Shown: one piece after another, positions 42,235-61,819 of the stretch
How positions within the stretch are numbered: the stretch's first letter is position 1
Layout of the letters: each line of letters begins with the position of its first letter
Assembly (NCBI GenBank): GCA_905221605.1
Contig: CAJNDS010002765.1
Location: forward strand, 124,001-188,000
DNA: 64,000 nt
From: Symbiodinium natans
Taxonomy: Eukaryota; Sar; Dinophyceae; Suessiales; Symbiodiniaceae
Direction of reading: 5' to 3'
Notes under the pieces: model-generated
The model's input: the letters and a program-made list of their open reading frames with translations, nothing else
Told to the model about the DNA's origin: nothing
Databases searched by the model: none
Translations under genes and position numbers: made by a program

Positions 42235-45200
42235 GCATGCTCAAAAACGTAGCCGTGCATGCAGGTATCTTGGCCTGCGTCCTGGTCATCACCTTGTACA
42301 AGATGCAGAAGCGGAGATATCTTAAATGCAGAACTTCGCCGCATGCTTCGCTCGGCAGCGAGCTGAAATGCCTGTACCGTTTGGAGGACAAGTGCAACCT
42401 TCTGTTGACGCTGGCGCGGTGTCTGATTCTTCGATCGCCCTCAGGAAAAGCAAAGATTACAGTGCAGAACGTATTCATGATTTGTGTCGGGCACTTCATT
42501 GTTATGCAGTTGCTTGTTACGCCAACGTTGCTGATCGCAATCCTTAATGGCAACAACATGGCAGAGCTCCGCGCAATTTGCAACTTCAATGAATGGCTGA
42601 CAGGCGGTTGCCTGAATATTCGCCACCGTGCGCTGTCAACCACCATGCTGATGGCTTCCATCATCATGAACGCCATCTTCTTCCTCAATACGCAGTTGGA
42701 GTATTTGACACGTCATGGACTCGACCTGGCTGAGGAGACTGGCGACTGTCCTCGCTTCTACAGGGTTGCCATGAAGTTTCGTGCGTCCAAGGTCTACAGT
42801 GCATTTTTGACCCTTTGCTTCATGGTCTCACTCTTCTTCTTCTGCGCGTACTTCATCTTGGTTATCATTTTTATATTGCTGGGAACGCTTCTGAAGCCTG
42901 AGCGCCTCGCTCCTGTGCTGCTTGCCGTTGTGGGAGCCGTGATCGTGGCCCAGCAGGTCACGCAGAAGTTCGAAGAGTTTGTAGAACAGGCGAAGGTCAT
43001 GGCAGCTGAGTGGTTGGCGAAGAATGTCAACACTGCCCTGGATTCTGCAAAGGATTTTCTCGGTGACGTGGGTAGTCAAGTGGGAAACAAAATGGAAGGT
43101 CTGGCGGGCTCTGCCCTGGATTCCCTAGAGTCGGTGCCCTTTGCGAAGGAAGCATTGACCCGAGTGGGCGTGAATGCAGATTCCTTCAATGCAGATTTGA
43201 TCATGAATAAGGTGCAACAGGCCACTGAGATGGCTATTGACTCAACGGCTGATCAGATCGGCAAAATAGCCGCCGATCCAGGTGCTGCAGGAACGTTGAT
43301 GAACATACGCAGTACACAAGATGCCATGAACTCTGCTCAAAAGCTGCTGGACCAAGTGGCAGACAATCTGCCGGGCAGAGTTTCTGATGAGGCTGAGACC
43401 ATGCTACATTCTGGCACAGCAGCAGGCGCATTAGGCACCCTGGGTGGATCTGCTATTTCTGCAGCAGTGGCTGCAGCCTCCACTTCAGCAGTTGCAAAAG
43501 ATGCACTAGGCAAGCTTGACGAAACAAGGTTACGCTCCTTGATGGAGCAAACATCGAGTCAGGCAGGTGTGGATCCGTCTGCGATAATGCAGATGCTGCA
43601 AGCATCGGGCCAGGCAGGCATCGACCCTTCCTCCATAATGCAGGTGGTCAGTGGCTCTGCAGATCAGGGTGGTAGCTTAGCGGCAGCACGTTCCTTGATG
43701 GAGCAGGCTTCAGGCCAGACAGGTGTGGATCCGTCTGCAATAATGAAGATGCTGCAAGCATCGGGCCAAGCAGGCATCGACCCTTCCTCCATAATGCAGG
43801 CGTTCAGTGGCTCTGCAGATCAGGGTGGCAGCTTGGCGGCGGCACGTTCCTTGATGGAGCAAGCTTCAGGCCAGACAGGTGTGGATCCGTCTGCAATAAT
43901 GAAGATGCTGCAAGCATCGGGCCAAGCAGGCATCGACCCTTCCTCCATAATGCAGGCGGTCAGTGGCTCTGCAGTTCAGGGTGGCAGCTTGGCGGCGGCA
44001 CGTTCCTTGATGGAGCAAGCTTCAGGCCAGGCAGGTGTGGATCCGTCTGCCATGATGAAGATGCTGCAAGCATCGGGCCAAGCAGGCATCGACCCTTCCT
44101 CCGTAATGCAGGCGGTCAGTGGCTCTGCAGATCAGGGTGGCAGCTTGGCGGCGGCACGTTCCTTGATGGAGCAAGCTTCAGGCCAGGCAGGTGTGGATCC
44201 GTCTGCCATGATGCAGATGCTGCAAGCATCGGGCCAAGCAGGCATCGACCCTTCCTCAATACTGCAGGCGGTCAGTGGCTCTGCAGATCAGGGTGGCAGC
44301 TTGGCGGCGGCACGTTCCTTGATGGAGCAAGCTTCAGGCCAGGCAGGTGTGGATCCGTCTGCCCTAATGAAGATGCTGCAAGCATCGGGCCAAGCAGGCA
44401 TCGACCCTTCCTCCATAATGCAGGCGGTCAGTGGCTCTGCAGATCAGGGTGGCAGCTTGGCGGCGGCACGTTCCTTGATGGAGCAAGCTTCAGGCCAGGC
44501 AGGTGTGGATCCGTCTGCCCTAATGAAGATGCTGCAAGCATCAGGCCAGGCAGGCATCGACCCTTCCTCCATAATGCAGGCGGTCAGTGGCTCTGCAGAT
44601 CAGGGTGGCAGCTTGGCGGCGGCACGTTCCTTGATGGAGCAAGCTTCAGGCCAGGCAGGTGTGGATCCGTCGGCCATGATGCAGATGCTGCAAGCATCGG
44701 GCCAAGCAGGCATCGACCCTTCCTCCATAATGCAGGCGGTCAGTGGCTCTGCAGATCAGGGTGGCAGCTTGGCGGCGGCACGTTCCTTGATGGAGCAAGC
44801 TTCAGGCCAGGCAGGTGTGGATCCGTCTGCCCTAATGAAGATGCTGCAAGCATCAGGCCAGGCAGGCATCGACCCTTCCTCCATAATGCAGGCGTTCAGT
44901 GGCTCTGCAGATCAGGGTGGCAGCTTGGCGGCGGCACGTTCCTTGATGGAGCAAGCTTCAGGCCAGGCAGGTGTGGATCCGTCTGCCATAATGAAGATGC
45001 TGCAAGCATCGGGCCAAGCAGGCATCGACCCTTCCTCCATAATGCAGGCGTTCAGTGGCTCTGCAGATCAGGGTGGCAGCTTGGCGGCGGCACGTTCCTT
45101 GATGGAGCAAGCTTCAGGCCAGGCAGGTGTGGATCCGTCTGCCATAATGAAGATGCTGCAAGCATCGGGCCAGGCAGGCATCGACCCTTCCTCCATAATG

Positions 45201-45905
45201 CAGGCGTTCAGTGGCTCTGCAGATCAGGGTGGCAGCTTGGCGGCGGCACGTTCCTTGATGGAGCAAGCTTCAGGCCAGGCAGGTGTGGATCCGTCTGCCA
45301 TGATGCAGATGCTGCAAGCATCGGGCCAAGCAGGCATCGACCCTTCCTCCATAATGCAGGCGGTCAGTGGCGCTGCCGATCAGGGTGGCAGCTTGGTCGT
45401 GGGGGTACGTTCCTTGATGGAGCAAGCTTCAAACCAGGCAGATGGAGAACCTAGTGGAAGGTCCGCTTTTGCTGTTGCAAATTCAGTTTTGAAAAGAGCC
45501 GTTACGGGGGTGGTTGAAACATTGGATTTGGAGGCACCCGATTTGGACGAGATTGGTCAGGATGAATCACTTGATCTGGAGAACGTCCTTGTGATGTTGG
45601 GCCTCAGCAAAGGGCAACTGCTGCTCATTAACATCAATGCGATTCTTGTATTCCTGTCCGTTGTGGGCTTCACTCTCATCGGCTCCTCGATTTTTTTAGG
45701 CGGCGGCATAGATGCTTTGATTCCCCAGCTCACCTCAACTGCAGGGACGCTGGCATCGACGGTTGCTGTGATCCGCTCCAAGAAGCAGGAGCTAAAGAAC
45801 GCGGATCTCTCTGCAATGTCTGGCGCTCTCAAGGACGCCGCAGGTGAGCTTCAGAATCCTGGGCAGAATCCTGCACACAATGCAGAGACCAAGAAGGAAC
45901 AGTGA
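42235..45905 (+). CDS. Multi-pass membrane protein with twelve 52-residue repeats
   Basis: The open frame begins after an AG at 42233-42234 (an in-frame TAA lies at 42222) and ends at 45905, giving about 1220 residues. The first ~250 residues have about five hydrophobic helices (ILACVLVITLY, FIVMQLLVTPTLLIAIL, MLMASIIMNAIFFL, a long one with FFFCAYFILVIIFILL, and LLAVVGAVIVAQQV). A ~190-residue helical linker rich in Ala, Asp and Gln follows. Then come twelve near-identical 52-residue repeats (43533-45404) and a truncated thirteenth. An acidic stretch (LDLEAPDLDEIGQDESLDLE), two more hydrophobic segments (about 1125-1175) and a charged tail end the protein. It is probably the 3' exon of the gene starting at 37144; alternatively it is a separate gene starting at ATG 42228. 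Function unknown. Confidence 0.75.
43533..45404 (+). repeat. Twelve tandem 156-bp coding repeats
   Basis: Twelve 156-bp units run in frame, starting at 43533 and 43689 and every 156 bp after that. Each 52-residue unit splits into three related modules: ASGQAGVDPSAIMKMLQ (17), ASGQAGIDPSSIMQAVS (17) and GSADQGGSLAAARSLMEQ (18). Units differ at a few sites (for example A/T after GQ, I/M/L/A after PSA, V/F before SGS). Each carries the same GGATCCGTCTGC-like segment. Near identity at synonymous sites implies recent expansion or gene conversion. Confidence 0.97.
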
Positions 45906-46867
45906 GTCAATGTGCCCACGCCGTGGTTTTTTCGAAGCAATCTCAATCGCAACATGCTCCGACGCCTTCATGCAAAGCATTGGTACAAGTAGTGGAGCAA
46001 ACCTGAGAATTGAAGCCGCGCTCGCACCAGAAATGCTTGCTGCAATCTCCGAAGTCTCTTTTAATTTTGATAATTGTGGCAGCACTGGGGGGATGTTCTT
46101 TCTTGAAACAATTACGAGAACAAGCAGGAGAGATGGAGAGCATGAGAGAGAGATAGACAGAGAGAGAGAAAGAGAGAGAACCGCTGGGCCGTCGTGGCCG
46201 GGGGACCTCCTCTGGGGGGACCCTCTTGAGCGTGATGAAGAAGAAGAAGAAGAAGAGAGAATACAGAGAAGACACGGAAAGAAAAGAGAGAGAAAAAGAG
46301 AGATTGTGAGAGAAAGAATCCAAACTATATATATATATACATACACAAACGTTTGCGCGCGCCGCCTCGGCAGCCGGGCTGGCCAAACGAGTGGTGGAGC
46401 ATGCGCACCGGGCCTGAGAGAGGTCCAAGTTCGGGGGGTTTCAAGGGGAGGGTGGAGGGTTTGGGGTTCCAACAGAAAGCTCCAGGGGCGGATTATAAGG
46501 GCCAGGAAGGGAACAGGAGGATCCCAGAGAAGGATCAGATACTGGTATGTTACATATTTTTCAACAAATTCGTACATTTATAATCTGAATTATAATCATT
46601 ATCTAGATATGGAGATGAAGATAAAGGATTCATATATCTAATTTCAATTCTAGTAGAAATATTTATGATTACTATCATCTAGATCAAAATATATATTTCA
46701 TCTAAATTAAAAATCATATATTATATTCGTAATTCACACACGGTATTTGTTGTCGCCATTTTAATATTGGATACTAGCTTCTTTATTAAGAGATATCAAA
46801 AGAATTCTTATTATATAGAAAATTCTTGATGAAATAAATCCGAAAAACTAAGATGGAAGGAATTTTA
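45906..46867. other. Post-gene low-complexity and AT-rich sequence up to the gap
   Basis: GA-rich simple repeats lie at about 46127-46318 (GAGA and GAA runs), then (TA)n at about 46326-46340. From about 46550 to the gap the sequence is AT-rich. No gene recognised; the open frames here follow from the repeats. Confidence 0.5.
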
Positions 46868-46967
46868 NNNNNNNNNNNNNNNNNNNNNNNNNNNNNNNNN
46901 NNNNNNNNNNNNNNNNNNNNNNNNNNNNNNNNNNNNNNNNNNNNNNNNNNNNNNNNNNNNNNNNNNN
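46868..46967. other. Assembly gap, 100 N
   Basis: Exactly 100 N, a common placeholder for a scaffold gap of unknown size. It lies where the 5' terminal repeat of the adjacent retroelement would be expected, so an assembly break caused by that repeat is plausible. Confidence 0.99.
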
Positions 46968-47186
46968 ACTGCTTCACTTCAGCGTCAGCTAAACGCTCCT
47001 CCCAGTCTCTTTTCATACGTCCTCGAGAGCTCTTTCTGTGGTGTGTTGGTCAGTACCAGAGAAGGATCCAGGATCCTTTTGTTTCTCAACCCTCCTCATT
47101 GGCTTGCTCTTGCCTGCACCGGCCCCCGCCCGCATACGTGTGTTCGCCTTCTTCTTCAGCTGTCCAACTAAGGTGCCGCTTGCAAC

Positions 47187-49427
47187 ATGTCGAATCCTTC
47201 CTCCGAACCCGATAATCTCGACCCTTGGCTCTTGTTCAGCCCCGCAGGTGTGGTCGACCAGACCGAGTGTGACTTGCGTGCCGCTGATGAGCAAGCCCAG
47301 TCTTTCGTTCGTTCTCTTCAGGGCTCTTTCCAAGGGGGTGAGTCGGGAGCCCTTGAAGATACTGAGGCTTTGGAGAGTCGCAACTGGGTCAACTGCACTA
47401 GGCCTTTTCAGGGTTTGCCCGGGGTTCCAGGGGACGACGAGGGTTGGGTCGACCCAGGCTGGGTTCAGGGCAGAGAGCCTGTATTCGGCACACGCATACC
47501 GCCTTCGTCGTGTGCACCTACTTCAATTTCTGAAGCTGCTTGGTATGACGCCTGTCGTGACTTGGAGACAGACGATTTCTTGAGTGCCACCTTGCGTGTG
47601 GCAAACCATTCTTTTCAAGAATCCGATGACGCTTCGCTTCTGGTCCCTCTTCCAGATGACCGAATCTTGGGTGATTTCCAGCGTGCAGCTGTAGAGGCTA
47701 CTTCACAACAGCGTTTTGAGAGCAGGCCGAGATTTTCATGGGAAACATCTTCGTCTTTGCGTTTTTCCTGGGAGAGAGGAACGAGTCCTTTGCAAGTTAT
47801 TGGTGCAGTTGATTTTCTTGATCCAGAGGAATCCGATGACGAAGCAAAACGAAGGTGTGTGCCACCCACGACGGTTAAGTTCCTGAAACGCATCACAGTG
47901 GAGCGGTCGGAGGAAGACATCCGAACGGCTGCTCTTAAGAAGATGAGGCTGGTCATCTTGTGGGATCCAGAGGTGAGTAGCTTGGGAAGGTCTTTGCTGT
48001 CGTTGCTCGGGGCAGATGTAAACGAGGAGGCCATCAAGAAGTCTTTTTCGGATGCCTTCAGAACTAAAGCTTCCAGGACAATCTCAAAGCGAGGTGGGTC
48101 CCTCCTGAGGTATTTTTCCTGGTGCACAACAGAGAGCATAGACAGCCCTCTTGCAGTCGATGAGCCGACCATATACATGTATGCAAACTTCTTGCGTGAC
48201 TCAGGAGCCAGGCCGACCAGCATGACGCATTTTGTGGAAGGCCTTCGCTTTGTGCACGGGGTCGCCAAGTTGCTGCACATGGAGCCTGAAACAGTCCTCT
48301 CCAGCCGGGTGCTTGGCATAAGCCGGGACCTATATTTGATGAAGCGTCCTCTGCAACAGAAACCTGAACTGACGGTTCCCATGTTGATGGCATTGGAAGC
48401 ATTCTGTGTGGAAACTGGACCAGTACTTGCGTGCATTTGTGGACAGCTGCTGTTTTGTGCGCATTCGGCTGACAGATGGAGCGATTCTCAGAGCCTCAAG
48501 GAGATTTCAATTCAGGAGTCCGACGGCGTGATCTTAGTTGTTGCATCAGGCTTGACATCCAAGACGACTGTCTCTAAGGAGGCAAAAACCCGGCTGCTTC
48601 CCTACGCAGCCCTCGGCTGTGGGTTGTCTGGCAACAATTGGGCGAAAGCTTGGCTGAAGGCTCGTGAACATGAAGGCCTCTCCCTTGAGAACTTTGCGCT
48701 GCCGTCACGCCTCGAGAGCCAAAACCGCTGGAGCTCTGTTCAGATGGGGAGCGTCGAGGCGACCAGCTACCTGCAGGACTTTCTGATTTTGAAGGGAATC
48801 GATCAAGACCAAGCCATGCAGAGGGCGACGCATTCGTTGAAGGCCACTTTGACATCTTGGGCGGGCCGCTGCCCTCGCCCAAAATTCAGTGGAGCGGAAA
48901 AGCGCCTTCTTGGACACCACATTGCTCCAAAGGAGAAATCACCGGCGACCTACGCCCGGCAGCAGTACACCCTTTTGTACGGGCGAGTCATGGCGATGTT
49001 CGAAGCCATCCGCGCGGGAGACTATGACCCTGACTTGTCTGACGTTGATCGGGTGGTGCAAGTGGCTGCAGCGGAGCGACCAGGTGCCGCCCAGGACGTC
49101 ATTGCTCCGGAACCCGAGGCGCCTGTGCCACGACACGATTTTGACGAGTTCGAGGACCCCCCGTCTTCACAGAGCTCTGAAGCTTCTGAGGCTCCAGGCC
49201 GCGGTGGAGGAGGCTTACAGAGGGCCCCTTTTGGGCCGAATGTTTCTGAAGATTCTCTTGTAGTGCACACAGTGTCCGGCATAACGCATTGTTTGAAGGA
49301 TCAAGCCAACTTGTGGTGTGGCCGACCTCTCTCGAGGAACCATATTCCTTTCCGTGAAGCGGGGGTCTATTTTGAGGACCCTGACCCCTGTAAACAATGC
49401 CGGCACATTTTGGAGGCTGCAGAGTGA
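47187..49427 (+). CDS. Tyrosine recombinase ORF of the retroelement
   Basis: 746 residues from ATG 47187. Tyrosine recombinases cut and rejoin DNA through a covalent Tyr link; in DIRS-like elements they integrate a circular copy. The first ~230 residues are unrecognised. The core (about 235-640) includes a helical DNA-binding-like part (FWCT-type turn SLLRYFSWCTTES). The catalytic signs are Arg about 430 (AHSADRWSD), His549-x-x-Lys552 (HSLKATL), His about 576 (LLGHHIAP) and Tyr about 589 (SPATYARQQY). The second Arg of the classical HxxR is Lys here. The C-terminal ~60 residues hold a possible zinc-binding set (HCL...WCGRPL...DPCKQC). Being 5' of the gag-like ORF is not the usual DIRS or Ngaro order. 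A 392-bp non-coding stretch separates it from the next ORF, in another frame. Confidence 0.8.
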   Translation: MSNPSSEPDNLDPWLLFSPAGVVDQTECDLRAADEQAQSFVRSLQGSFQGGESGALEDTEALESRNWVNCTRPFQGLPGVPGDDEGWVDPGWVQGREPVFGTRIPPSSCAPTSISEAAWYDACRDLETDDFLSATLRVANHSFQESDDASLLVPLPDDRILGDFQRAAVEATSQQRFESRPRFSWETSSSLRFSWERGTSPLQVIGAVDFLDPEESDDEAKRRCVPPTTVKFLKRITVERSEEDIRTAALKKMRLVILWDPEVSSLGRSLLSLLGADVNEEAIKKSFSDAFRTKASRTISKRGGSLLRYFSWCTTESIDSPLAVDEPTIYMYANFLRDSGARPTSMTHFVEGLRFVHGVAKLLHMEPETVLSSRVLGISRDLYLMKRPLQQKPELTVPMLMALEAFCVETGPVLACICGQLLFCAHSADRWSDSQSLKEISIQESDGVILVVASGLTSKTTVSKEAKTRLLPYAALGCGLSGNNWAKAWLKAREHEGLSLENFALPSRLESQNRWSSVQMGSVEATSYLQDFLILKGIDQDQAMQRATHSLKATLTSWAGRCPRPKFSGAEKRLLGHHIAPKEKSPATYARQQYTLLYGRVMAMFEAIRAGDYDPDLSDVDRVVQVAAAERPGAAQDVIAPEPEAPVPRHDFDEFEDPPSSQSSEASEAPGRGGGGLQRAPFGPNVSEDSLVVHTVSGITHCLKDQANLWCGRPLSRNHIPFREAGVYFEDPDPCKQCRHILEAAE

Positions 49428-49819
49428 CCGAAATCTTGAAGGAAAACGAGTGCATCTGTCCTTGTGAACAGCACAGACGGTACATCCTTCTGGCCAATCT
49501 CAGGCGTCGCACCGAAGTCTGACAATCGGTGATGTTGCTCCCACTCGAACGCAAGTCGAGATCTTTGGGGAGAGCAAGTTGAGCCTACTCCAGCTGACTC
49601 GAAGCCTTTATCGAGAATCACCCAGCTGTGAGAGCCGAGGCTTCGTTCACCGTCAGAGCACTTCGGAATCACAGTCATGATAAAAGCATGGGCTTCTGCT
49701 CGGGGAAACTGCGGACACGTTTGACTGCGTTGCAATACCCATCTTACTTGTCCGAAGTCGATCTTTAGGCTTCAACCTGACAAGGAGCGAGATCGTCCCG
49801 ACTTGCTAGGTGTCGAGCC

Positions 49820-51031
49820 ATGGCGGGGATTGCAGTGGATAGCGAGGCCTGGTTTTTGGAGCGTTGCCAGAAGGTCAAACTCAGCGAGTCCACCATTCGC
49901 ACTCTTGTCGATGCGGGATTCAAGAGCTTCGGAACCTTGGCTTTTGCTGTGTCTACCACGCCGACACAATTGGATGAAGCCGATGTGAAGCGATGGATGG
50001 GAAACATTTTTCCACATGACTTCCCGCCTGATCAGTCCTCTAAGGTGAGACGTTTGATGTTTGAAGCCCAGAACCTAAGCGTGGCTGACATGAAGGCACG
50101 CGTGGAACCTGCCGCTGACACAGCTGCGGTTCGTGCTATGCCCAATGCGGAGCGCTTGGCCCGCCAGGAGGCCTTGAAGAAGCGTGTCACGGGCCTCATT
50201 CTTTCGCCTGAAACCTTGCCAGCTCATTCCGTTGTGGACACTCTTGTCAAACAACTCGAGGATGGAGTCCTCCAGTACTTGCCAGCCTATCGCATCATCA
50301 GCCGTGCCCAGGAAGCTCAGATGTTGAAGAAAGACCAGCAAGTGGTGGTTGATGGCGAGGGGAACTTGAAGATGGCGAGCAAAGCCGAATCTGCCACTTG
50401 TGACACGCACACTGACTTAGCTCTGCGCAATGCTTGGACTCGTCGCTCGCTGGCATATGATCTCGCCGGCTTGTGCAGCTTTCAGGTGCTTGAGGAGTGG
50501 TGTCACAAATGCTTCCTTGCCTTGATGAGGCCCGTGCCCAATGGTTACTCCAAAGTAACCACTCATCAACTTATTGCTGCCGACAGGCACCTGTTCACGC
50601 TGGCTTCGCATGCGCTCCTTGGAAAACTTGCCGGCGAGCCCGGCCGTGAGAAGCCTTTGGAAACCCAGATCAAGCTGTTGTCCGAGTCGCAAGAGGTTTT
50701 GCAGTACCTTAACGCTCTCCCTACTCCTCCTCCTTCTGCCCCCTGGCCAGGCAAGCGCAAATGGGATGACCCCAAAGGCGGTGAGAAGGGCGATAAAGGG
50801 AAAGGTAAGGGGAAGGGCAAGTCGTCTAAAGGTGAGGTTCGCAAGGAGTTCACAGTGCCCGACGGCTGTGTCAGCCGCGTGAACGACAAGCCTGTCTGCT
50901 TTGCCTTCAACCAAGGAAGGTGCCGCTTTCGAGTTAACTCCAAGAACCGTTGCGGCCGTGGTTTCCACATCTGTTGGAGGGCTGGGTGTGGTGGCGACCA
51001 CCCTGGCCATCTGTGCACAAAGGGGTCTTGA
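49820..51031 (+). CDS. Gag-like zinc-knuckle ORF, followed in frame by pol across UGA
   Basis: 403 residues from ATG 49820 (context GCCATGG). The first ~60 residues look like a SAM/helical module (LDEADVKRWMGNIFP), and the middle is alpha-helical, as in capsid-type proteins. A Lys/Gly-rich linker (KGDKGKGKGKGKSSKGE) at about 318-334 precedes a Cys/His cluster (CFAFNQGRC...CGRGFHIC...CGGDHPGHLC) that should bind nucleic acid. The ORF ends with UGA followed by CUC. From that stop the same frame stays open for another 1245 codons, so a Gag-Pol fusion by stop readthrough is likely. The role as gag is inferred from position and the zinc knuckle, not from sequence similarity. Confidence 0.7.
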   Translation: MAGIAVDSEAWFLERCQKVKLSESTIRTLVDAGFKSFGTLAFAVSTTPTQLDEADVKRWMGNIFPHDFPPDQSSKVRRLMFEAQNLSVADMKARVEPAADTAAVRAMPNAERLARQEALKKRVTGLILSPETLPAHSVVDTLVKQLEDGVLQYLPAYRIISRAQEAQMLKKDQQVVVDGEGNLKMASKAESATCDTHTDLALRNAWTRRSLAYDLAGLCSFQVLEEWCHKCFLALMRPVPNGYSKVTTHQLIAADRHLFTLASHALLGKLAGEPGREKPLETQIKLLSESQEVLQYLNALPTPPPSAPWPGKRKWDDPKGGEKGDKGKGKGKGKSSKGEVRKEFTVPDGCVSRVNDKPVCFAFNQGRCRFRVNSKNRCGRGFHICWRAGCGGDHPGHLCTKGS

Positions 51032-54000
51032 CTCCGGGCGGGGGGCTCCGATCTTCCCCCGGAGCCTGCGCCGCTCTCCCCGCATTGTGTCACGCACGTG
51101 CCTTTTGAGGCGAACTCTGTTGGCTTAGGTCCCGAAGCCCTTGCCGAGCAACTTCTTCGAAAGCCAACCTTGGAAGCCTTTGATGTTTTGCGAGTTTTCG
51201 ACCTCTTGCCCAGAAATCCATCTAAACGAGATGCCTTCCATCACCGAAGCTTTGGTTGCGGTGCCTGGGTGTTCGGGTCCCAGATCGGAATTCGTACAGA
51301 TACTAAGTCTTTTCCAAAGAGCTCCGCTCTCTTTTGCCGTTATGTTCACCAAGTGAATCCTCACCACACCTTTTCCAGCCTGGTCTTGCTCGATGATGTT
51401 CAAAGCCCACTCCATGTGGACTGCAACAATGACCGCTCCTCCTGGAACCTCGTCATCCCCTTGACCCGATTTCGCAAAGGCCAAATCTGGGAAGAATGCG
51501 AAGGAGGGGCTGACCGCTTTGAAGACGCTTCTGGCACTTTTTGGGGGCGTCTGCATGATGTATCCGCCGGACCAGTCTTGCTTCATGCCGCCGTGAACCG
51601 CCATGCTGTTTTGCCTTGGGAAGGCCGCAGGGTTGTGCTGATTGCCTTCACCCCCCGGGATAGTCCCAAGCTTCCCCTTGCCGACCGTGACTGGCTGGGT
51701 GACATTGGCTTCCGCCTACCCTCCTCATCCGCCTTGCCCACCCTTGGCCCGCCCAAACTCTTTCTCGAGGTCTTCTCCGGGTCCGCGACCCTGGCTCGAG
51801 CCGCCCAGAGGCTCGGGTTCACGGCCGTTGCTGTTGATAACTGTCCCCGGCGTCCTCAAGTTCCCACGGTTCGCCTTGACCTTGCTTCCGATATGGGCCG
51901 CGATGCCTTGTTTCGTTTGCTGCATGACAAAAAGCCTGCCGCGGTGCATCTAGGCCCCCCTTGTGGCACATCGTCTCGGGCCCGTGAGCGGCCCTTGCCG
52001 GCCAAGTTACGCGCCCTCGGCCTCCGTGACCCTCGGCCGCTTCGGAGCGCCGACTTTCCCCTCGGCTTGCCTCACATTGACCCCGCCAGCCCTGATGGTT
52101 TGCGCCTCGCCGCTGCCAATCGTCTTTATGACTTGGTCTTTCATGTCCTGCTTTGGTGCGCTGAGCACGACTGTGTCTTCACTCTTGAAAACCCCTCGAA
52201 CTCGTGGTTCTGGAGTGTGCTGGCCTTGAAGGTCCGAATGCACGCTTCGCCCAAGGTCCGCCGCTGGTTCAGTGACTTGCATGAGATCATCTTCGACGCT
52301 TGTGAGCACGGTGGCGCTCGTCCCAAGTCCACCAAGCTCCTCAGCAACCGGGCTGCCTTTGGCAGCCTTCGTGCCCGCTGCAGCGGCCGTCATGTGCACG
52401 AACCTTGGGGCGTCAGCTGGCGTGCTGGCGGTTGGGTGTGGTCCACTCAACTCGAGGCCCAGTATCCTGTTGTGTTGGCTGCTCGCTGGGCCGCATGCTT
52501 TGCTTCTGCTTGCCATGTCTCCCCTGGCCAGACCGAGGCCCCCGACCCGCGCTTGCAGTCTCTTTCCGCGGTGGGACGCCAAACCCGTAAGCATAAGCCC
52601 TTGGTTTCCGAATATAAATTCGTGCGCATCATGCCCCGCGGCCAAATTCCCTCATCCGGTTGCAAGGTCCTCGGCGCGCCTCCCGTGCAAGGGGGTGATT
52701 CGGGGGAGGTCGCCGAGGCTCTTCCTGAGACTTCCCCAGACAGCGAGGGGCTTGGTTTGGATAGGGGTGAGGATTGCCAGGTTGGTTTCTACAGGGATCC
52801 TTGTGAATGGTTCCAGGCTGCTAAGAAAGTGTGCCACCCTCTTGACTCCGAAAACAAACTCCCAAAGGAGCTGAAAGCTTCTCTTGAGGCCAACATGGTA
52901 GCTGATCGCCGAGCCCTCTTTCTTCGTCGAAAACTTGCACTGATGAAAGCAGAGATCCTTTCCAAAAAGTTGGAACAAGACGAAAGCAAACTTCACTCAG
53001 CGATGCCATCGTGGATGCAGACCGTGATGCAAGGCAAGAGGATCCTACTTCTGGAGTCTTTGCTGCGACAGCACAATTTCGATGACATGGAGGCAATCGA
53101 GCTTTTGAAGTCGGGGGTGAAGTTGTCGGGTGTGTCCGAATGCCCTGCTGCCTTTGATGTCAAAGTGAAACCTGCCACGTCTACCGAAGCGGAGCTCCGT
53201 CAAGTCGCTCCCTTGAAACGGGCAGCGCTACTTTTGGAAAATCGGGCTTCCGATCCCGAGCTAGAACGCGATCTGCTGAAGGTGACCATGGACGAAGCGA
53301 AGGCTGGATGGCTTCAGGGGCCTTTCAGCAGTGAAACGGAAGTTTCTGAGCATCTGGGGAGAACAGATTGGAGTTTGATGCGAAGGTTTGGCGTTCGACA
53401 AGGAGGCAAACTGAGACCGATTGACGATGCCTGCGATTCCGACTTGAACTGCACTTTCACCAGCACCATGAAGCTACAGTTGCAGGACGGCGACTTCTGC
53501 ATCTCTTTGGCCATGGAAATCGCAAAGCGCGTGATGGGAAAGCCGGGAGTCGTTCCCAGAGAGTGGAGTGGCCGATGCCTTGATCTAAGTGGTGCTTACA
53601 AACAGATGGCAGTCTGTGAGCAACATCGGAGCTTGTGCGTTCTGCTTCTGCGTGATGCCGATGGCCGCCCAATCTTTTTCATTTCTTCAGCATTGGTTTT
53701 TGGGGCCTCTGCTTCAGTCTATGCCTTCTTAAGAATAGCTCGGGCCTTGAGCTTCTTACTGAACGTCGTGCTGGAGATCCCTCATGCAAACTTCTTCGAC
53801 GACTATCCAATCCTTGTGCCTTCGGAAGATGCTGAACAGGTGGGCCTCCTATGCACGAAGTTTTTGCACTTGCTTGGTTGGAAACATGCCGAAATTGGAG
53901 AGGGTCACAAAGGCCTCCCCTTTGCGAAGTCCTTTGACGTGCTGGGCTTGCATCTCGACATCTCTTGCATATCTTCGGGAACCTTGACAGTGGCTAACAA

Positions 54001-54769
54001 GCTTGGCCGGGTTGACCGACTCCTTGAGCGCCTTCGTGAGATCAAGCAGTCAGCAGTCCTTAGCCGCCACGAGGGCCAAGTCCTGCTGGGCCTCCTGCGG
54101 TACGCAGCTGGGTTCTTCGGGGGCCGGACTTTGCGTTATGTTTGTGAAGATTTGAACGCCATAGTGCATCATGGACATCACCCTTCTCCTGTTGCGGTTA
54201 GACTGCTATGTCAACGCGCTATAACTGCACTGGAGTCGTCGAGGCCCCTACAGCTCAAAGCAGATATGCCGAGTTCTCCGGTGCATCTCTTTACAGATGG
54301 CAGCTGGGAAAAAGGTGTAGCCGGAGTTGGGGCTGTGCTTTTCGACGCGCACGATGGTTCGGCAGAGGTCTTTGGAGGCGAGATGCCAAAGGACATGGTA
54401 GAATCGCTCCTACAGACCGACGGTGACCACTTGATTGGACAAATCGAAACCTACGCTGTCGTGGCCATGCGGATACACTTGGCCCATCGCCTTTCAGGAC
54501 GTCGAGTGATCATTTGGACAGACAATGAAGGTTGTCGATTCGGGCTCATTAAAGGCCGTTCGAAGTCCCACACGATGGACACCTTGATCAGAAGCTTCGC
54601 CGCTGCTGAGGATGCCGATCCAAGTCATACCTGGATATGTCGTGTGCCGAGTTACTCGAACATCGCTGATGGGCCTTCTCGGGGAAAGCCTGAGGAGGCT
54701 CTGAAGATTTCAGGAGCTGTCGCATGTCAGTCTTTTCCATGGATTCGGCAAGCATTCGAAACTACCTGA
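51032..54769 (+). CDS. Pol frame: dioxygenase-like, cytosine methyltransferase-like, reverse transcriptase, RNase H
   Basis: 1245 codons after the gag UGA, without a good ATG near the start. Counting from 51032: a 2OG/Fe(II) dioxygenase-like part (about 95-215) has His128-x-Asp130 (PLHVDCNND), distal His about 191 (RHAVLPWEGRR) and an Arg nearby, in the TET/JBP arrangement. A methyltransferase-like part (about 243-400) has EVFSGSATLA, the Pro-Cys motif GPPCGTSS (about 309-316) and LENPSNSWFW (about 385). Reverse transcriptase (about 790-1000) has DLSGAYKQM (Asp about 851) and FFDDYPI (Asp 923-924). RNase H (about 1085-1220) has FTDGSWE, QIETYAVV, WTDNEG and NIADGPSRG, resembling the DIRS type. 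In DIRS elements a methylase, if present, follows RNase H and is adenine-type; here it precedes RT. No protease was seen. Enzyme activity is inferred only. Confidence 0.8.
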   Translation, partial: LRAGGSDLPPEPAPLSPHCVTHVPFEANSVGLGPEALAEQLLRKPTLEAFDVLRVFDLLPRNPSKRDAFHHRSFGCGAWVFGSQIGIRTDTKSFPKSSALFCRYVHQVNPHHTFSSLVLLDDVQSPLHVDCNNDRSSWNLVIPLTRFRKGQIWEECEGGADRFEDASGTFWGRLHDVSAGPVLLHAAVNRHAVLPWEGRRVVLIAFTPRDSPKLPLADRDWLGDIGFRLPSSSALPTLGPPKLFLEVFSGSATLARAAQRLGFTAVAVDNCPRRPQVPTVRLDLASDMGRDALFRLLHDKKPAAVHLGPPCGTSSRARERPLPAKLRALGLRDPRPLRSADFPLGLPHIDPASPDGLRLAAANRLYDLVFHVLLWCAEHDCVFTLENPSNSWFWSVLALKVRMHASPKVRRWFSDLHEIIFDACEHGGARPKSTKLLSNRAAFGSLRARCSGRHVHEPWGVSWRAGGWVWSTQLEAQYPVVLAARWAACFASACHVSPGQTEAPDPRLQSLSAVGRQTRKHKPLVSEYKFVRIMPRGQIPSSGCKVLGAPPVQGGDSGEVAEALPETSPDSEGLGLDRGEDCQVGFYRDPCEWFQAAKKVCHPLDSENKLPKELKASLEANMVADRRALFLRRKLALMKAEILSKKLEQDESKLHSAMPSWMQTVMQGKRILLLESLLRQHNFDDMEAIELLKSGVKLSGVSECPAAFDVKVKPATSTEAELRQVAPLKRAALLLENRASDPELERDLLKVTMDEAKAGWLQGPFSSETEVSEHLGRTDWSLMRRFGVRQGGKLRPIDDACDSDLNCTFTSTMKLQLQDGDFCISLAMEIAKRVMGKPGVVPREWSGRCLDLSGAYKQMAVCEQHRSLCVLLLRDADGRPIFFISSALVFGASASVYAFLRIARALSFLLNVVLEIPHANFFDDYPILVPSEDAEQVGLLCTKFLHLLGWKHAEIGEGHKGLPFAKSFDVLGLHLDISCISSGTLTVANKLGRVDRLLERLREIKQSAVLSRHEGQVLLGLLRYAAGFFGGRTLRYVCEDLNAIVHHGHHPSPVAVRLLCQRAITALESSRPLQLKADMPSSPVHLFTDGSWEKGVAGVGAVLFDAHDGSAEVFGGEMPKDMVESLLQTDGDHLIGQIETYAVVAMRIHLAHRLSGRRVIIWTDNEGCRFGLIKGRSKSHTMDTLIRSFAAAEDADPSHTWICRVPSYSNIADGPSRGKPEEALKISGAVACQSFPWIRQAFETT

Positions 54770-54784
54770 TAGCTCTCTTAAAAA

Positions 54785-55057
54785 GGGGGCATTTCGGGAG
54801 AGCAGGAAATCGCGAAACCTGATCGCATCCTGTGCATGCTTGCCCCACGACTGAAGAAAAAGCGCGTCAGTGTAACTGGATGAATCTTTAACACATATAT
54901 GGGATTAGGTTTCACATGTGTACATAGAAGATGAAATTATTTTCGTGATCTCACAAGATAGACCTTTGCGATGAAGCTTATTCCAATCATGAGGAAGAAA
55001 TCTCAAGCAGATTGAGTTCCTATTCTTTCATACAAAACCCCAACTTTTGTGAGAGGG
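54785..55057 (+). repeat. Retroelement 3' direct repeat, copy 1 (B1)
   Basis: 273 bp beginning GGGGGCATTTCGGGAGAGC and ending TTTTGTGAGAGGG, starting 16 bp after the pol stop. By reading, identical to copy 2 at 55339-55611, 554 bp downstream. Confidence 0.95.
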
Positions 55058-55338
55058 AAAATTTCAGCTCGCCTGACATTTCTCTCTCAAACTAAAGTTG
55101 TAGTGCTCTTCCTTCGAGCACGGGGTTTTTAATAATCCTTTTTGCGACCTTTTTGAGTTGCGGAAAGTGTTTCGAGTTTTAAACGAATTTTCCTCAGCAT
55201 CATGAACGTTATTTTTAGCCATGTGACTTGCTGCATGCTTGAATCAACAGTTGGCCCGTTCATGTTCACAGCTGCTCGAGCTCGGGCTGAGAGAAAATTT
55301 TTGTCCCTCCCACCCACCCGTATCAATCTTGGGTATGG
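55058..55338 (+). repeat. Spacer between the direct repeats (candidate A2)
   Basis: 281 bp without coding potential. It contains a small stem GTGCTC...GAGCAC at about 55101-55121 followed by a T run. In split-direct-repeat elements this position holds A2, a copy of the 5' terminus A1. No A1 was found because the 5' side enters an N gap. Confidence 0.5.
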
Positions 55339-55611
55339 GGGGGCATTTCGGGAGAGCAGGAAATCGCGAAACCTGATCGCATCCTGTGCATGCTTGCCCC
55401 ACGACTGAAGAAAAAGCGCGTCAGTGTAACTGGATGAATCTTTAACACATATATGGGATTAGGTTTCACATGTGTACATAGAAGATGAAATTATTTTCGT
55501 GATCTCACAAGATAGACCTTTGCGATGAAGCTTATTCCAATCATGAGGAAGAAATCTCAAGCAGATTGAGTTCCTATTCTTTCATACAAAACCCCAACTT
55601 TTGTGAGAGGG
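55339..55611 (+). repeat. Retroelement 3' direct repeat, copy 2 (B2); right end of element
   Basis: Second copy of the 273-bp repeat. Homology with copy 1 stops at 55611, after GAGAGGG, which marks the right boundary of the element. Confidence 0.93.
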
Positions 55612-55702
55612 CACGGCCCGACTGGAGGGCGAAGCAGCCCGGCTTGGGGAACTCTTCCCTTATGCGAGTCCTCTTACAGCCGGCTGTGGAGGTTCTCCAG
55701 CC

Positions 55703-56380
55703 TTGGAAGACCAGGTAAGATGCTCGAGCAGCCTGGCAAATCCAGAGCGAACTTGGGCCCATAGCGCCAATTGTGGTCCCAGCCAATGCAGGACTTTCCA
55801 CCAAGCACTCTGCTTTCGCTGGCATCACAAGGGCCGGAAAGAGTGGCTGCTCCTCTCCGAGGACAGCAGCGTGTATTTTGTTCGCACCAGCAAATCCGGC
55901 AAAACAGTCCGAGCCGGACCCTGTGGGCAATGGAGATGCATGGAAGACCCAGCAGAGCTCCGCGGGGGAACGGGAGGCGACCCGCCCGTGCAGTGGCTTC
56001 GCCTTTTGAACTTTAATTGCACTGGCTGTGGTAACATTCCAACCCATAACCTCAACTTCTTGCCCGGTTCTGGGAAAAGGCAACCAGCGATCTTGCATGG
56101 AGAGGATGGAAGACGCATCGAGCTCTACTGTGCCCTTTGTCTAGAAAGCTTCCTAGCGTGCACGTGGAGCTGGCCGAGTTTCGACCAAGCAGTTAGGAGA
56201 CCGGTGTTTCTGGACTACGCTTCCCTTGCTAACTTGCGTCAGTTAGGTCACCAAGGTACGGAGCCCGTAGAACCTTTGCTGGCGCCGCTGTCTTCTGCAG
56301 CCAGCGCACATGGCTGGACCTTCCTTGAGGAAGGGTGTTCTCAGGATCTAGATTTCCCCAGAAGAAGCAGGCAACAGTGA
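55703..56380 (+). CDS. Unrecognised ORF directly right of the retroelement
   Basis: 225 codons open to a stop at 56378-56380, with no ATG at the start (first in-frame Met near 55940), so it is probably an exon or a fragment. The first ~150 residues are protein-like with many Trp and Cys (CFRWHHKGRKEWLLLSED, LNFNCTGCGN, LYCALC). After about 56130 the sequence looks less protein-like and may be intron. No family was recognised. It begins 92 bp after the element end, so the element may have landed in or next to a gene. Confidence 0.4.
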   Translation: MEDQVRCSSSLANPERTWAHSANCGPSQCRTFHQALCFRWHHKGRKEWLLLSEDSSVYFVRTSKSGKTVRAGPCGQWRCMEDPAELRGGTGGDPPVQWLRLLNFNCTGCGNIPTHNLNFLPGSGKRQPAILHGEDGRRIELYCALCLESFLACTWSWPSFDQAVRRPVFLDYASLANLRQLGHQGTEPVEPLLAPLSSAASAHGWTFLEEGCSQDLDFPRRSRQQ

Positions 56381-58765
56381 TTGGCTGGTGTGTGGCTTTG
56401 AAGACTTGGAAGACGTCCCCTGGGAGGTCTGACCTAATCCGGCCCCAACCCACCCAAATTGCAGGAGCTATGCCCTGCCAGAATCAAGGGTGAGTTGCTC
56501 ACCCTCCGGAATCCCTTTGTCACGGGTGAAGCTTCTCCCCGTCCAATCAGCGACGGTCCTGTGAGTCCGTTCCCAAACTGAGAGTGCCATAGGGCACCAC
56601 GGAGAATCTTGCATTGAATTGGATCATTTAATGATCGCATAAGGATGCAGGTTGTAAGAATGCAAGCAGAAGTGCTCAGTCCCGGCACGTACCCAGATCC
56701 ATCCGTCGGAATATTTTCGCAGTTGTTCCGATGGACACCCTGCAGGACGGGCCGCCTCGATGCGGCTTTTGTTCAGCCTGACACCGGTTCGGCCCCTTTG
56801 CTCGGTCTGTGCAGCAGACCGCTGGACCGGGTTTTCGGGCTCAGGTGCTTGTGGGTCTTCCACAGGCCCAACACGGGGTTCTCGCAAACACAGCGCACGA
56901 AAGGATAACGTTAGAACCGCACCCTGAAGATCCTCACTGGTTGATGAGGGGAGGGAGGGCGCTGAGGTGTGGCAGGAACGGACGAGGATCCTAAGTACGC
57001 CGACCGTATGAGGTTTAGGGCATTTCCCTGCACCAGTTTGGGGTTACCCGTGTTTGGCCTGTCGAGGATCTCCTTTGAGATTCCTGCAGGGTGCTGTTGT
57101 TTCTCTCCGGGTGGTGCAAGCCCATCTTGGAGGAAGCCTAGCGGCAGGCGTTGTTGTTAGGGACCAATGCTTGGCTGACGGACAGCCAGAGGCACCAGAT
57201 TGTGGAGGTTAAAGGCTGTGGCTCGGTGCCTGAAAGCCTGCCCAACTGAGCTGCCCAAATCAACCAAGCCCTCCCTGCGTGCAAGTGGTATGGGCTCCTT
57301 GGAGCCGCTGAGGTTGAGCCAGTTAGTAAGAGCGAGAAAGCTGGTTCCCCTCCCTGGTGAGTAAGTGCGAGAAAGCCAGGTCAGCAAACGGGGCTAACAG
57401 GAGCTCAGTGCTGCTGCGGCATGAGTTCCTGGGGCCTAGGTTAGTAAGGGCGAGAAAGCCTAGGCCTGTGCCGGAGGTTGGCGACTTTGCCAAGCCACTT
57501 GCGTTCAGTTTAGTACAGGCATTGCCCATGTATCGGTTCCAGACCTTCTGCCTTTTCTGAGTGAGCCGGAAGTGGGTGAGTTTTTCCCCTGTGCTGGCAG
57601 GGCTGATAGGGTAGGCAGTACAGACCAGGCAGTTCAACCTGCAGAACATTTTGCCTAGGGCTTTGTACAGTGCCAAACCAGTGAGTAGCCGTAGGCCGCC
57701 GAGCTTCTCGCGGAACTGGTTAGGCCCTTTTTCTTCTCTCGGTGCTCCCTGCACATAGTACGGCCGTGTCAAGCAGGCCAAGGACACCTCGAGAGTCCCT
57801 TTTCCGTGCTTAGTTAATACCTACCGGAACTCCGGTTCCGAAGAGCCTAACCTGGCTAGCGACTCAGCCCGCTTTCGAGTGATATATGTGACCCTCCTAG
57901 TTTCCCAGTTGACACGTGATGTGCACTTGAGTTGTCTGCTATGAGTGTGAAGCATAGGCACGAGGACATGTCAGGCAGTGCAGATTTCTTTTGGCTTGGT
58001 GAGACCTTGTTTTGAGTGGGAAGAACCGTTTTCTGTTCGTTTTCTCGAAACTCGTTTGTCGGAACTCGTTTCCTGTTTGTGACCTGGTATTTGGTGACCA
58101 GAAGTGACTCAAGCCAGTTTAGGTCTGCACAGAGCTCAGCAGAGCACCTAAGAGGTGCTAGGAACCTACCCACAGTGTTTAGGAGTAGAAGTTCCATCGC
58201 TGAGTGTTTTCACCTGAAGTACCTTTGTTTTCCCATGTCTGGCAGACAGTGTTTGAAGCTGGAGAGCCGTGCTCGCATTGGCTCAAGACGAGCGGAGCTC
58301 GAGAAGCTGTGAACAGCGCAGTGAAAAGAGTCCGCACTTCGTGCTGTGAGGGTTCAGTGTAGTCTTGACCTGAGGTCCCTTAGGCCCCGTAGCTGTGCCA
58401 CGAGTTTCAACGCGCACCGTTTGCCTTCTCTTGGGCTCTTGTGCCGGAGTCTAACTGAACTGGGTGTCGCCTCTGCTTGCCCTTGCTGAGGTCATGCCAT
58501 GAGTTTCAGGTTCTGTGGCTATCTAAAAGTCCATATGTGGGCTCTTAGATCCAAGACCGCAACATCTAAAACCATCCAGGCCTGCTGCGTTGCGCCTACA
58601 CATCTTGATTTAGAGCTGGGAAGCGTTGGAGCTGTCCTTGCCGCACCTCAATTTGAGAGCGAACAAGCAGTTACACCGCGTGGCTTCGACACTCCGCCAT
58701 CGGCCGGGATCTCTGCAAGGGGTTAGGATGACTGCAGTCCTGCAGCCTCCCCTGGCCCCTGCTTT
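56381..58765. other. No gene recognised; a short dispersed motif
   Basis: No supported exon. Three copies of a motif GTAAGnGCGAGAAAGC lie at about 57326, 57360 and 57443, the outer two inside longer matches GTTAGTAAG(A/G)GCGAGAAAGC. At 58274-58290 the bases GCATTGGCTCAAG share their last ten bases with the dinoflagellate spliced leader, but the rest does not match. Confidence 0.4.
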
Positions 58766-59323
58766 TGTTCTGGTTCTTGTTCTTGTTGTTGTTGTTCTTG
58801 TTTCTTGTTTCTTGTTTCTTGTTTCTTGTTTCTTGTTCTTGTTTCTTGTTTCTTCTTGTTTCTTCTTGTTTCTTCTTGTTTCTTCTTGTTTCTTCTTGTT
58901 TCTTCTTGTTTCTTCTTGTTTCTTCTTGTTTCTTCTTGTTTCTTCTTGTTTCTTCTTGTTTCTTCTTGTTTCTTCTTGTTTCTTCTTGTTTCTTCTTGTT
59001 TCTTCTTGTTTCTTCTTGTTTCTTCTTGTTTCTTGTTTCTTCTTGTTCTTCTTGTTTCTGTTTTCTTGTTTCTTTGTTTCTTCTTTTTTCTTCTTGTTTC
59101 TTCTTTTTTCTTCTTGTTTCTTCTTGTTTCTTCTTGTTTCTTCTTGTTTCTTCTTGTTTCTTCTTGTTTCTTCTTGTTTCTTCTTGTTTCTTCTTGTTTC
59201 TTCTTGTTTCTTCTTGTTTCTTCTTGTTTCTTCTTGTTTCTTCTTGTTTCTTCTTGTTTCTTCTTGTTTCTTGTTTCTTGTTGTTTCTTGTTTCTTGTTG
59301 TTTCTTGTTCTTGTTGTTTCTTC
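58766..59323. repeat. Decamer minisatellite CTTGTTTCTT
   Basis: Tandem 10-bp units, very regular at about 58851-59030 and 59110-59270. A 5-bp CTTGT/TTCTT variant occurs at the start, and irregular units lie at 59031-59110. Strongly strand-asymmetric: almost no A on the plus strand. Long open frames here are artefacts. Confidence 0.97.
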
Positions 59324-59564
<241 letters not shown>

Positions 59565-59904
59565 AGTACAGTTTACATGTTGGCTGAGGGAGCACAGTAG
59601 TTGAGTGAATGACCATGTGAGTGTGTGAGTGCGTTTCTGGTTGCACAACTGAATGGTTACGTGAGTGACGAGTAAGTGATGGGCCTTTCGACATGGAATA
59701 TGTTCCATGCCATTGTAGCGTGTTTTGCAAAAGATGTGCGAAGAGTTGCTTCTTGAGAAGAAGTCATAAGAAAGAGGTATATGGGAATCGGTATTCCACG
59801 GAATTCCATGAACTAACCTGCAGGAGCATTCTTGAGCCGGTCTATTCACTTCCGAAGCCGTTTTTGCACGTGTTTAATGCCGGTCCAATTGTGCTTCTTT
59901 TGCC

Positions 59905-61819
59905 ATGGGTGCTTCAACTGATGTGAGCAGCCTGGTGCGGAATTATTGGTCAGTGCTTTTGGGAAATGCTTTGGAATGGTACGAATTTGCGATCTACGGC
60001 TGCTCGGCGTTGGTGATGATTTTGGACCGGTGGTGGATTTTTGGCATGTAAAACACTTCATCGCGGGTGTGGGCTTAGAAAAGAATATGAAGGGTCGTTG
60101 TATTTTGTTTGTGCCCTCTGCAGGTTGCATGGCGACCTACATGGAACAAAATTTTTTCCGTGGTTCTGTTCTTGCAACTTGGCTCGGCTTCACAGCGACG
60201 TTTGTTGCCCGTCCTTTGGGTGGCATCTTCCTTGGCATCTTGAGTGATGCTTTCGGTCGGAAATTGGCGGTGATGCTGACCATTGTCGGCATGTTGAGCG
60301 GAACAGTTGGCCAAGGGCTACTACCCACCCCTCGTGGTGCTGGAGATTCGGCTTGGGGGTCTTTCGGACTGGTCCTTCTTTTCAGTTTACGGTTGTTGCA
60401 GGGTCTTTGCACTGGTGGTGAAATCAGCACAGTATCCACATACATCGTGGAAGTGTCCGGGCACGAATCGAAGGGGCGCTGTGTGGCTTTAATATCCATC
60501 ACAGTCAACCTTGGTTTCCTTTTGGCCAGGTCCCTCGGCAGCATTGATGTTCTTTTTGAGCCTGAAGTGTAAGCGTGACGTTCAAAAGCCATTGCAAGCA
60601 AATGATCCATTTGCTGATCAGGACGGTGGTATGGTCGCTACAGCTCATTCTTGGTGAGGACACCACAGTTGAAAAGTTCAGAGCTGCGTGGCTGGTAAGA
60701 GGACATTGTGCCCAGATTCAGCCGTGTTGTAATTTTGTGCTGCCAGGAGCGCATGTTGGACTGGGGTTGGCGGCTACCCTTCATTCTGGCCTTGTTACCC
60801 GGTGCCATGGCTTTGGCTGGTCGGCGTGACTTGAAGGAGTCAGAGGCCTGGTAGGACGGTCAATAGCATGTCATAGTCATCTTCATAGTCATAGGACCCA
60901 GGCGAGCTGGGTTAGAAGCTTTGGCCATTGTCAGCCTTCAGGTGTCGAACATGTTTTAGACATATCTCGGGGAAGAAGAGCAGTTTCATGCTTGTAAAGT
61001 TGTGGCCCCCAGTATATGCATGCGTCGGTGCGTTGTTTAGCATGTGGCCAGGAGTTCCAAGCGCAGAAAGAAGCCAGGGAAGCAGGGGCAGCCAACAGTA
61101 AGTCCGGAGCTTCCCTTTCAGAGCACTTCGTGAATGTGCTTGTTGGAATTGGCGGCGTCATTGCCTTTGCCGTCTTCCAGTACGGTGGCATGGTTTGGAC
61201 GAACTCGTTTCTTGAAAAGCACGGAGCACCTGCAAATATGCCCATGCTTGCGGGAATGTGTTCGAGGGTGCTTCAGATGGTTCTGTCCTTTTTTGTTGGT
61301 TGGTTTGCTGACTGCTATGGTGTTGCACTCGTGACTCTTGCCAGCGGCGCAATGCTTTGCTGTGCTGGTGCCCCATTCTTTTTCCTTTTGGCCTCCTACC
61401 CTGACAATGTGGCCAACATCTTCTTGATTTATGGTGTGGGTTATGGAATCATTGGAGCGATGGTGGGGACAGTTGTGTTCATGTACTGTGCCGAGCTCTT
61501 CCCCACCTCAGTGCGGAACCTGGGCGTCGGGATCAGCTACAACATCGGCTTTTCAATCTTCGGAGGCTTCGCACCTCTCGTGGCTGAAGCCAGTTTGGGT
61601 TGGTCTTTGTATGGTCCGGGACTCCTCCTGTCCGCGGCCGGTCTGCTCACTTTGCTAACTGTGGTGATAAGCATGATGGGGCTCAGGGCAGGAAAGCTGA
61701 AACTGGCTTACCTCAGGCCGGAGCTCTATTTCGGCATGTCTTCAAAGTCTTCAGGTTCAGGTTCTAAGAAACCAGATTCTGCTCGGCAGGCGCAGTTCAC
61801 TTGCGTGGCCGGCGTGTAA
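59905..61819 (+). CDS. MHS/ProP-type major facilitator transporter, five exons
   Basis: Exons 59905-59998, 60124-60529, 60622-60694, 60747-60845 and 61052-61819 total 1440 nt, so 479 residues. All joins keep phase; the donors are GC, GT, GT and GC. The family (metabolite:H+ symporters, for example ProP, KgtP, ShiA) imports metabolites such as betaine, proline or organic acids with protons. Family signs in order: GNALEWYEFAIYG at the start, then EQNFF, TFVARPLGGIFLGILSDAFGRK, LQGLCTGGE, DWGWRLPFILALLPG, LKESEEF and ELFPTSVRNLGVGISYNI. Twelve helices are expected and the length is typical. The first and third exons carry family motifs that single-frame ORF searches would miss. The last ~35 residues are Ser/Lys-rich and cytosolic. 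The start ATG 59905 directly precedes the first helix. Substrate unknown. Confidence 0.88.

Follow-up and report, generated by a model that had tools for sequence, protein, structure and literature searches.

A DIRS-order retrotransposon of Symbiodinium natans with a predicted dioxygenase and a methyltransferase-like domain in its Pol frame

Described relatives of the element

Retrotransposons bearing a methyltransferase and DNA transposons bearing a TET dioxygenase are each known already. We describe here a DIRS-order retrotransposon in a window of 64,000 nucleotides (positions 124,001 to 188,000 of contig CAJNDS010002765.1) from the 759 Mb assembly of the dinoflagellate Symbiodinium natans (GCA_905221605.1), the Pol frame of which encodes a candidate dioxygenase next to a methyltransferase-like domain. 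The described system to set beside it is SymbioDIRS-Dnmt3, a dinoflagellate DIRS element with a Dnmt3 domain in Pol that is detectable by the Pfam profile PF00145, and for which methylation of the cDNA by this domain has been proposed; the main text of that study contains no whole-word occurrence of 'dioxygenase' or 'TET' (de Mendoza 2018; PMC5890265). In fungi, TET/JBP genes are carried by DDE DNA transposons and some Helitrons, and a 2025 survey reports no TET/JBP-bearing retrotransposon and offers a reason for the lack (PMC12730594). The same source describes phage gene sets for cytosine hypermodification that comprise a C5-methyltransferase, a TET/JBP enzyme and glycosyltransferases. Finally, the AlkB protein of an orchid Ty3/gypsy retrotransposon demethylates N6-methyladenosine (m6A) in RNA (PMC9289625).

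The window element has in common with SymbioDIRS-Dnmt3 its host group and DIRS order, an A-coding-B-A-B arrangement of repeats, a tyrosine recombinase open reading frame (ORF) and a cytosine-methyltransferase domain in Pol. The published domain, however, is found by PF00145 and clusters with Dnmt3, whereas that of the window element gives no PF00145 match. With the fungal elements it shares a predicted TET/JBP-type dioxygenase on a mobile element, but those are described as DNA transposons, and here the dioxygenase is fused into the Pol of a retroelement beside a methyltransferase. The orchid elements are likewise retrotransposons with a 2-oxoglutarate (2OG) dioxygenase; there the enzyme has an extra ORF to itself and is closely related to plant RNA demethylases, the elements are of Gypsy lineage, and the abstract names no methyltransferase (PMC9289625). 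The phage sets also place a writer and an oxidiser of 5-methylcytosine (5mC) in one selfish genome, as collaborating phage proteins, whereas the window element would make them as one polyprotein, and none of the ORFs read was recognised as a glycosyltransferase. Searches of the open-licence PubMed Central literature returned no account of any DIRS element that carries a TET-type dioxygenase, and an earlier note on this DNA likewise knew of no described DIRS-like element with both domains.

The two predicted domains of Pol

The Pol frame (51032–54769; all features given here are on the forward strand) encodes 1245 residues and is composed, in order, of a TET/JBP-AlkB-type 2OG-Fe(II) dioxygenase domain (DOX, residues 59–235; 51206–51736), a divergent C5-methyltransferase-like domain (MT, residues 238–483; 51743–52480), a linker, a reverse transcriptase (RT, residues 741–1010; 53252–54061) and an RNase H (residues 1040–1245; 54149–54766) with the motifs TDG/E/DN/ADGPSRG. 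The Pfam profile RVT_1 matches the window protein at an E value of 0.17 and 34 of 46 alignment members, the best at 2.4e-8, and a profile search matched the RT to Ty3 (E 5.7e-7); RT_RNaseH matches 4 of the 46 and a further protein, P0052, below cut-off. The motifs on which the earlier note had relied, PLHVDCNND, RHAVLPWEGRR, FSGS/PPC/ENP and those of RT and RNase H, are all present in the frame, and the catalytic residues of DOX and MT among them are conserved in its relatives. Chance matches to these motifs are ruled out by the conservation together with the structures.

In DOX, the HxD iron motif (H128 and D130; 51413–51421) with N133 at D+3, and the distal iron histidine H191 with the putative 2OG-binding arginine R200 (51602–51631), are kept in 23/23 covering sequences. 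Across 24 aligned sequences, the window's included, the H, the D, the N at D+3, N139, F147, the distal H and the R are identical in 23, and the 24th is without that stretch. AlphaFold modelled DOX alone with a pLDDT of 94 and a pTM of 0.90, and a second model, of DOX with MT, is also confident. The best structural matches of the DOX model are TET-type dioxygenases, with AlkB-type structures close behind.

Several observations weigh against the TET/JBP label. AlkB-type structures lie within about 1 Z unit of TET, and the Foldseek TM-scores are modest (0.4–0.55). No sequence profile matches DOX above cut-off: the best is Tet_JBP (PF12851), at E 0.077 over the DOX of P0063 only; the window protein and the remaining members scanned gave no such match. 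A PF12851 search of the host genome gave no match, its controls being silent as well. AlkB-type demethylases are found in plant RNA viruses, and a demethylase of this kind, acting on the m6A of element RNA or on alkylated cDNA, would agree with the close structural matches of DOX to ALKBH5, AlkB, FTO and NMAD-1. It would also have a parallel in the m6A-demethylating AlkB of the orchid Ty3/gypsy element (PMC9289625). We judge this role of DOX to be distinctly unlikely; TET/JBP is the best-supported label from the models, although AlkB-type scores nearly as well.

The methyltransferase alignment has 74 rows, of which 72 cover both catalytic positions. The motif IV cysteine (PPC, C311; 51962–51964) is present in 68/72 and the motif VI glutamate (ENP, E386; 52187–52189) in 72/72; the FSGS motif lies within E246–G250, and the motif I glycine, G250, is kept in 61/62 covering rows. 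The MT model matches DNMT3A and HhaI and thus has a predicted C5-methyltransferase fold. Sequence comparisons gave fainter signals. PF00145 matches 0/46 alignment members. With hhalign, MT aligned to two canonical C5-methyltransferases from the genome, at E 2e-4 (probability 47%) and 0.17, and the controls gave 0.065 (recombinase), 0.73 (RT) and 0.30 and 0.31 (shuffled). A DNA-methyltransferase family of PHROGs matches 4 of 8 relatives weakly (E 0.03–0.39), and sequence searches of the Protein Data Bank found the RT and, for a methyltransferase, only a hint of DNMT2 (E 0.14). Within MT, residues 424, 450, 454 and 456 (52301–52399) form a nearly invariant Cys-Cys-His-His set, which is possibly a zinc site in the target-recognition part.

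The dioxygenase and methyltransferase calls are thus supported by structure prediction, motif conservation and the selection described below. The profile searches and structure prediction that the earlier note had proposed came out differently: Pfam has no match to either domain in the window protein, while confident AlphaFold models match both folds. As for the calls themselves, both folds and the catalytic residues stood, but TET/JBP was not separated from AlkB-type.

The methyltransferase also bears on whether the element could be filed as SymbioDIRS-Dnmt3, which we rejected, there being no PF00145 match in the Pol members and places scanned. The host genome has at least 117 PF00145 matches, none of them at any of at least 44 pol places; these and the other genome counts are lower bounds because only part of the candidates was scored (37 of 2267 for pol, 123 of 276 for PF00145 and 46 of 2411 for P0063). 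Elsewhere in the genome, 1577-residue frames with a PF00145 match occur at three places. One of the PF00145 matches, L061 (G000:C557:1460000-1466500), has a Pol that reads RT, canonical C5-methyltransferase and RNase H, with a tyrosine recombinase ORF downstream; it looks like SymbioDIRS-Dnmt3, the comparison with the published family being one of architecture only. The RT, MT and DOX profiles of the window family give no match to it, and the sole link between the two is a weak member of our protein collection, P0075, which is 28–29% identical to the recombinase and RNase H of L061. By these sequence comparisons, the window family probably forms a DIRS-order lineage of its own, with a different methyltransferase and at most a distant relationship to L061. 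At another locus, L062 (G000:C1896:111000-116500), a 1564-residue ORF begins close to a canonical C5-methyltransferase domain, and the window-family profile recognises no RT in it; it is perhaps ORF1 of a SymbioLINE-Dnmt-like element.

Probable readthrough, joint inheritance and proposed action

Pol is preceded by a Gag-like ORF of 403 residues (49820–51031) with a Cys/His-rich C-terminus and no Pfam match. A single in-frame UGA (51029–51031) separates the two, so that gag and pol form one frame that is likely read through. Gag relatives, 40–48% identical, stand before pol in three further families, L022, L024 and L025, whose Pol proteins are 40–46% identical and which have the same order of Gag, one in-frame TGA and Pol with DOX and MT; each also has a 100% identical direct repeat after Pol, of 244, 282 or 357 bp. 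The TGA thus stands at the same gag/pol boundary in 4/4 families examined, and L022 has a further stop inside the RT. That four such diverged families each have a lone TGA in this position speaks for programmed readthrough, which we consider probable; a point to the contrary is that the RNA directly downstream of the UGA shows no unusual degree of structure (z -0.32).

The first methionine of Pol is residue 288, inside MT, and DOX would therefore be made only through UGA readthrough or from a non-AUG start. This placement matters for a further explanation, that DOX is an anti-silencing eraser of host marks over integrated copies and that MT has another purpose, as the fungal survey argues for TET-bearing DNA transposons (PMC12730594). 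A domain that forms part of Pol, and that is apparently produced only downstream of Gag, is badly placed to serve as a trans-acting chromatin enzyme, and a methyltransferase carried alongside an eraser would be contradictory; we regard the eraser as very unlikely.

The pattern of substitution indicates that DOX and MT are under purifying selection. In comparisons of ten loci of a diverged subfamily (dS ~0.3 to 0.4) with the window sequence, the pooled dN/dS was 0.115 for DOX and 0.150 for MT; the linker (0.055), RT (0.074) and RNase H (0.085) gave lower values and the N-terminal spacer (0.231) a higher one. These values are not independent, since they have one reference in common, several of the loci overlap or have a common history, and stops are present in some. 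Two observations count on the other side: very recent copies (L006, L007, L008, L010 and L012) gave dN/dS of 0.2–0.6 for DOX and 0.3–0.5 for MT, from few changes, and the catalytic cysteine is absent from four of the 72 MT sequences (S in three, N in one). That absence would suit catalytically dead domains kept as structural or nucleic-acid-binding modules, which we hold to be highly improbable given the invariance of the iron/2OG-site residues and of the MT glutamate in all covering sequences and the low pooled dN/dS of both domains. From sequence and models, both domains are very probably active on nucleic acid.

The two domains are encoded together, as the earlier note had claimed. Among 75 proteins collected, the window's included, with relatives named Symbiodinium and Cladocopium, DOX occurs in 24, MT in 74 and both in 23 (DOX first in 19, MT first in 4); both protein searches for pol used words from the DOX-MT end, and the near-ubiquity of MT is partly ascertainment. 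The one DOX protein without MT, P0069, simply lacks the MT region in its alignment row. In the host genome, 27 of the 44 pol matches listed span both active sites, and none of the 44 has DOX without MT. Two cover MT without the HxD motif (pol 205–1245, at L010, and 225–558), and L010 has DOX upstream as a separate piece. Separate unrelated insertions of the two domains, which the earlier note had raised against its own reading, are ruled out by the lack of a DOX-without-MT match among those listed, though the layout has been reshuffled.

Against a constant partnership, 51 of the 74 MT-bearing proteins show no DOX, nine of them despite having at least 300 residues before MT. DOX absence may often reflect truncation, because the proteins begin at a start codon and pol has no early ATG; P0004 and P0011, 92–95% identical to the window protein, show no DOX. 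The existence of the second layout, with MT before DOX, indicates that the DOX-MT unit has been reshuffled. The MT-first proteins P0008 and P0052 stand far apart in the RT tree, which includes 58 of 65 RT matches and in which meeting long branches, that of P0008 among them, were flagged and the deep order is unsure. Trees of 16 sequences share, of 13 splits, 10 between MT and RT, 5 between DOX and RT and 4 between DOX and MT, against maxima of 3, 4 and 3, respectively, in 1000 label shuffles. This suggests that MT largely stayed with its RT and that DOX partly stayed and partly moved. The MT-first protein P0063 has at least 62 matches in the same genome, with open frames of ~1150–1330 residues in the MT-then-DOX layout or relatives of it. 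At a dozen places an MT piece adjoins a DOX-RT piece in open frames of ~1150–1310 residues, judged by query coverage only, and both layouts thus appear to coexist in the genome. The family occurs in several RT lineages and in two layouts.

The fusion of the domains, their joint conservation and the phage precedent lead us to a sequential model. Readthrough Gag-Pol would place MT and DOX in the particle together with RT. RT would make the cDNA, MT would then methylate its cytosines, and DOX would oxidise the 5mC, to 5-hydroxymethylcytosine or further, before the recombinase inserted the modified circle. The modified bases might make the cDNA or the new copy resemble the accepted, richly modified host DNA, or help it to resist degradation and silencing. 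That the two domains act in this sequence on the element's own DNA during copying has, in our view, an even chance of being right. The weakest link is which base DOX would oxidise; the case that this is the 5mC made by MT is about evenly balanced. The wider proposal, of a retrotransposon lineage that hypermodifies its cDNA before integration by a two-step pathway of its own, as a eukaryotic parallel that arose independently of phage cytosine hypermodification, falls a little short of even and is put forward tentatively.

Dinoflagellate DNA is rich in 5-hydroxymethyluracil (hmU), and the title of a 2024 PNAS paper reportedly names a dinoflagellate hmU enzyme together with a role in transposon silencing. 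DOX might be a JBP-like thymine hydroxylase that puts hmU into the cDNA or the new copy, matching or manipulating the hmU of the host, with MT adding 5mC independently of it. The top structural matches of DOX include TET/JBP-type proteins, and in Breviolum multimapping reads are about twofold enriched in an hmU pull-down (PMC11071213). The sequence features examined do not separate oxidation of 5mC from that of thymine, but with MT in the same protein 5mC is the more natural substrate, and if hmU silences transposons, making it would harm the element. We therefore consider a thymine hydroxylase unlikely, though it is a credible rival to oxidation of 5mC.

If DOX is a TET-type oxidase, the family breaks the rule of the fungal survey that retrotransposons do not bear TET (PMC12730594), and it would combine this activity with its opposite, that of the methyltransferase, in one protein. 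Since Pfam barely detects the family, it may previously have been included with 'DIRS without DNMT'. Its simple genetics make it a suitable system for asking whether retroelements mark their own cDNA chemically, and it is relevant to the way in which the transposons of dinoflagellates cope with abundant 5mC and hmU.

Anatomy, copies and surroundings of the element

The element is a DIRS-order retrotransposon with split direct repeats and the recombinase first, in the order A1, recombinase, gag, UGA, pol, B1, A2, B2. In the window it extends from an assembly gap of 100 N (46868–46967), in which its left end is lost, to about 55609, from 55610 onward the window and other copies diverging. The earlier note had taken 46968 for the start. 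This is the edge of the gap, and comparison with the C230 copy identifies it as element base 467, the first 466 bases, including repeat A1, being missing. B1 (54785–55055) belongs to a 273-nt direct repeat, trimmed to the end seen in other copies, and is 100% identical to B2 (55339–55609), which the direct repeat and the comparison with other copies define as the right end. A2 (55056–55308) is the stretch that opens other copies as A1. Other copies in the same genome start with A1, GGAAAATTTC..., and end with B2, ...TTGTGAGAG; they confirm the A-coding-B-A-B arrangement and show that the B1/A2 join is the element's end joined to its start, a circle-like junction. No target-site duplication was seen at seven distinct sites (eight copies with both flanks read; right flank only for the window copy); C1291, C1072 and C377, with one end only or ends in opposite orientation, were omitted from this reading.

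The recombinase ORF (47187–49427) encodes 746 residues and has no Pfam match. It has eight homologues, two of them 99–100% identical, and R430, D433, K459, H549xxK552, GHH576–578 and Y589 are invariant in 6/6 aligned rows. The invariant R, K, HxxK, GHH and Y, which we take to be the R...K...HxxK/R...H...Y catalytic set, together with the homologues identify the ORF as a tyrosine recombinase. We assume the split repeats to be of PAT-like type. PAT/Ngaro-type DIRS elements presumably share with the window element the split direct repeats, a tyrosine recombinase and the lack of target duplication; the window element would differ from them in having its recombinase 5' of gag and DOX and MT in Pol.

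The element has been recently active. At least eight Pol frames, the window's included, are free of stops and 99–100% identical in protein sequence. Over 4580 bases, four of five copies differ from the window at 6–9 positions, 1–2 of which are flanking bases, and one differs at 42. Copies with both flanks read lie at distinct sites except the C2049/C349 pair, which has both flanks in common and represents one insertion duplicated in the assembly or the genome.

Rfam has no match in 46000–57000, NCBIfam and PHROGs scans of the window proteins gave nothing useful, and no relative turned up in IMG/VR when it was scanned with P0001 and A2. The CpG observed/expected ratio is 0.80 in the element and 0.72 in the window, with no clear methylation footprint. 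To the left of the gap, a 1225-residue ORF (42228–45905) has, by eye, hydrophobic stretches towards both ends and contains about 12 near-identical tandem repeats of ~50 residues (SLMEQASGQAGVDPSA...); the stronger Pfam matches fall there and look spurious. To the right of the element, 58001–60000 has a strong AT skew (-0.555) and ORFs overlapping on both strands, and is probably a long simple repeat.

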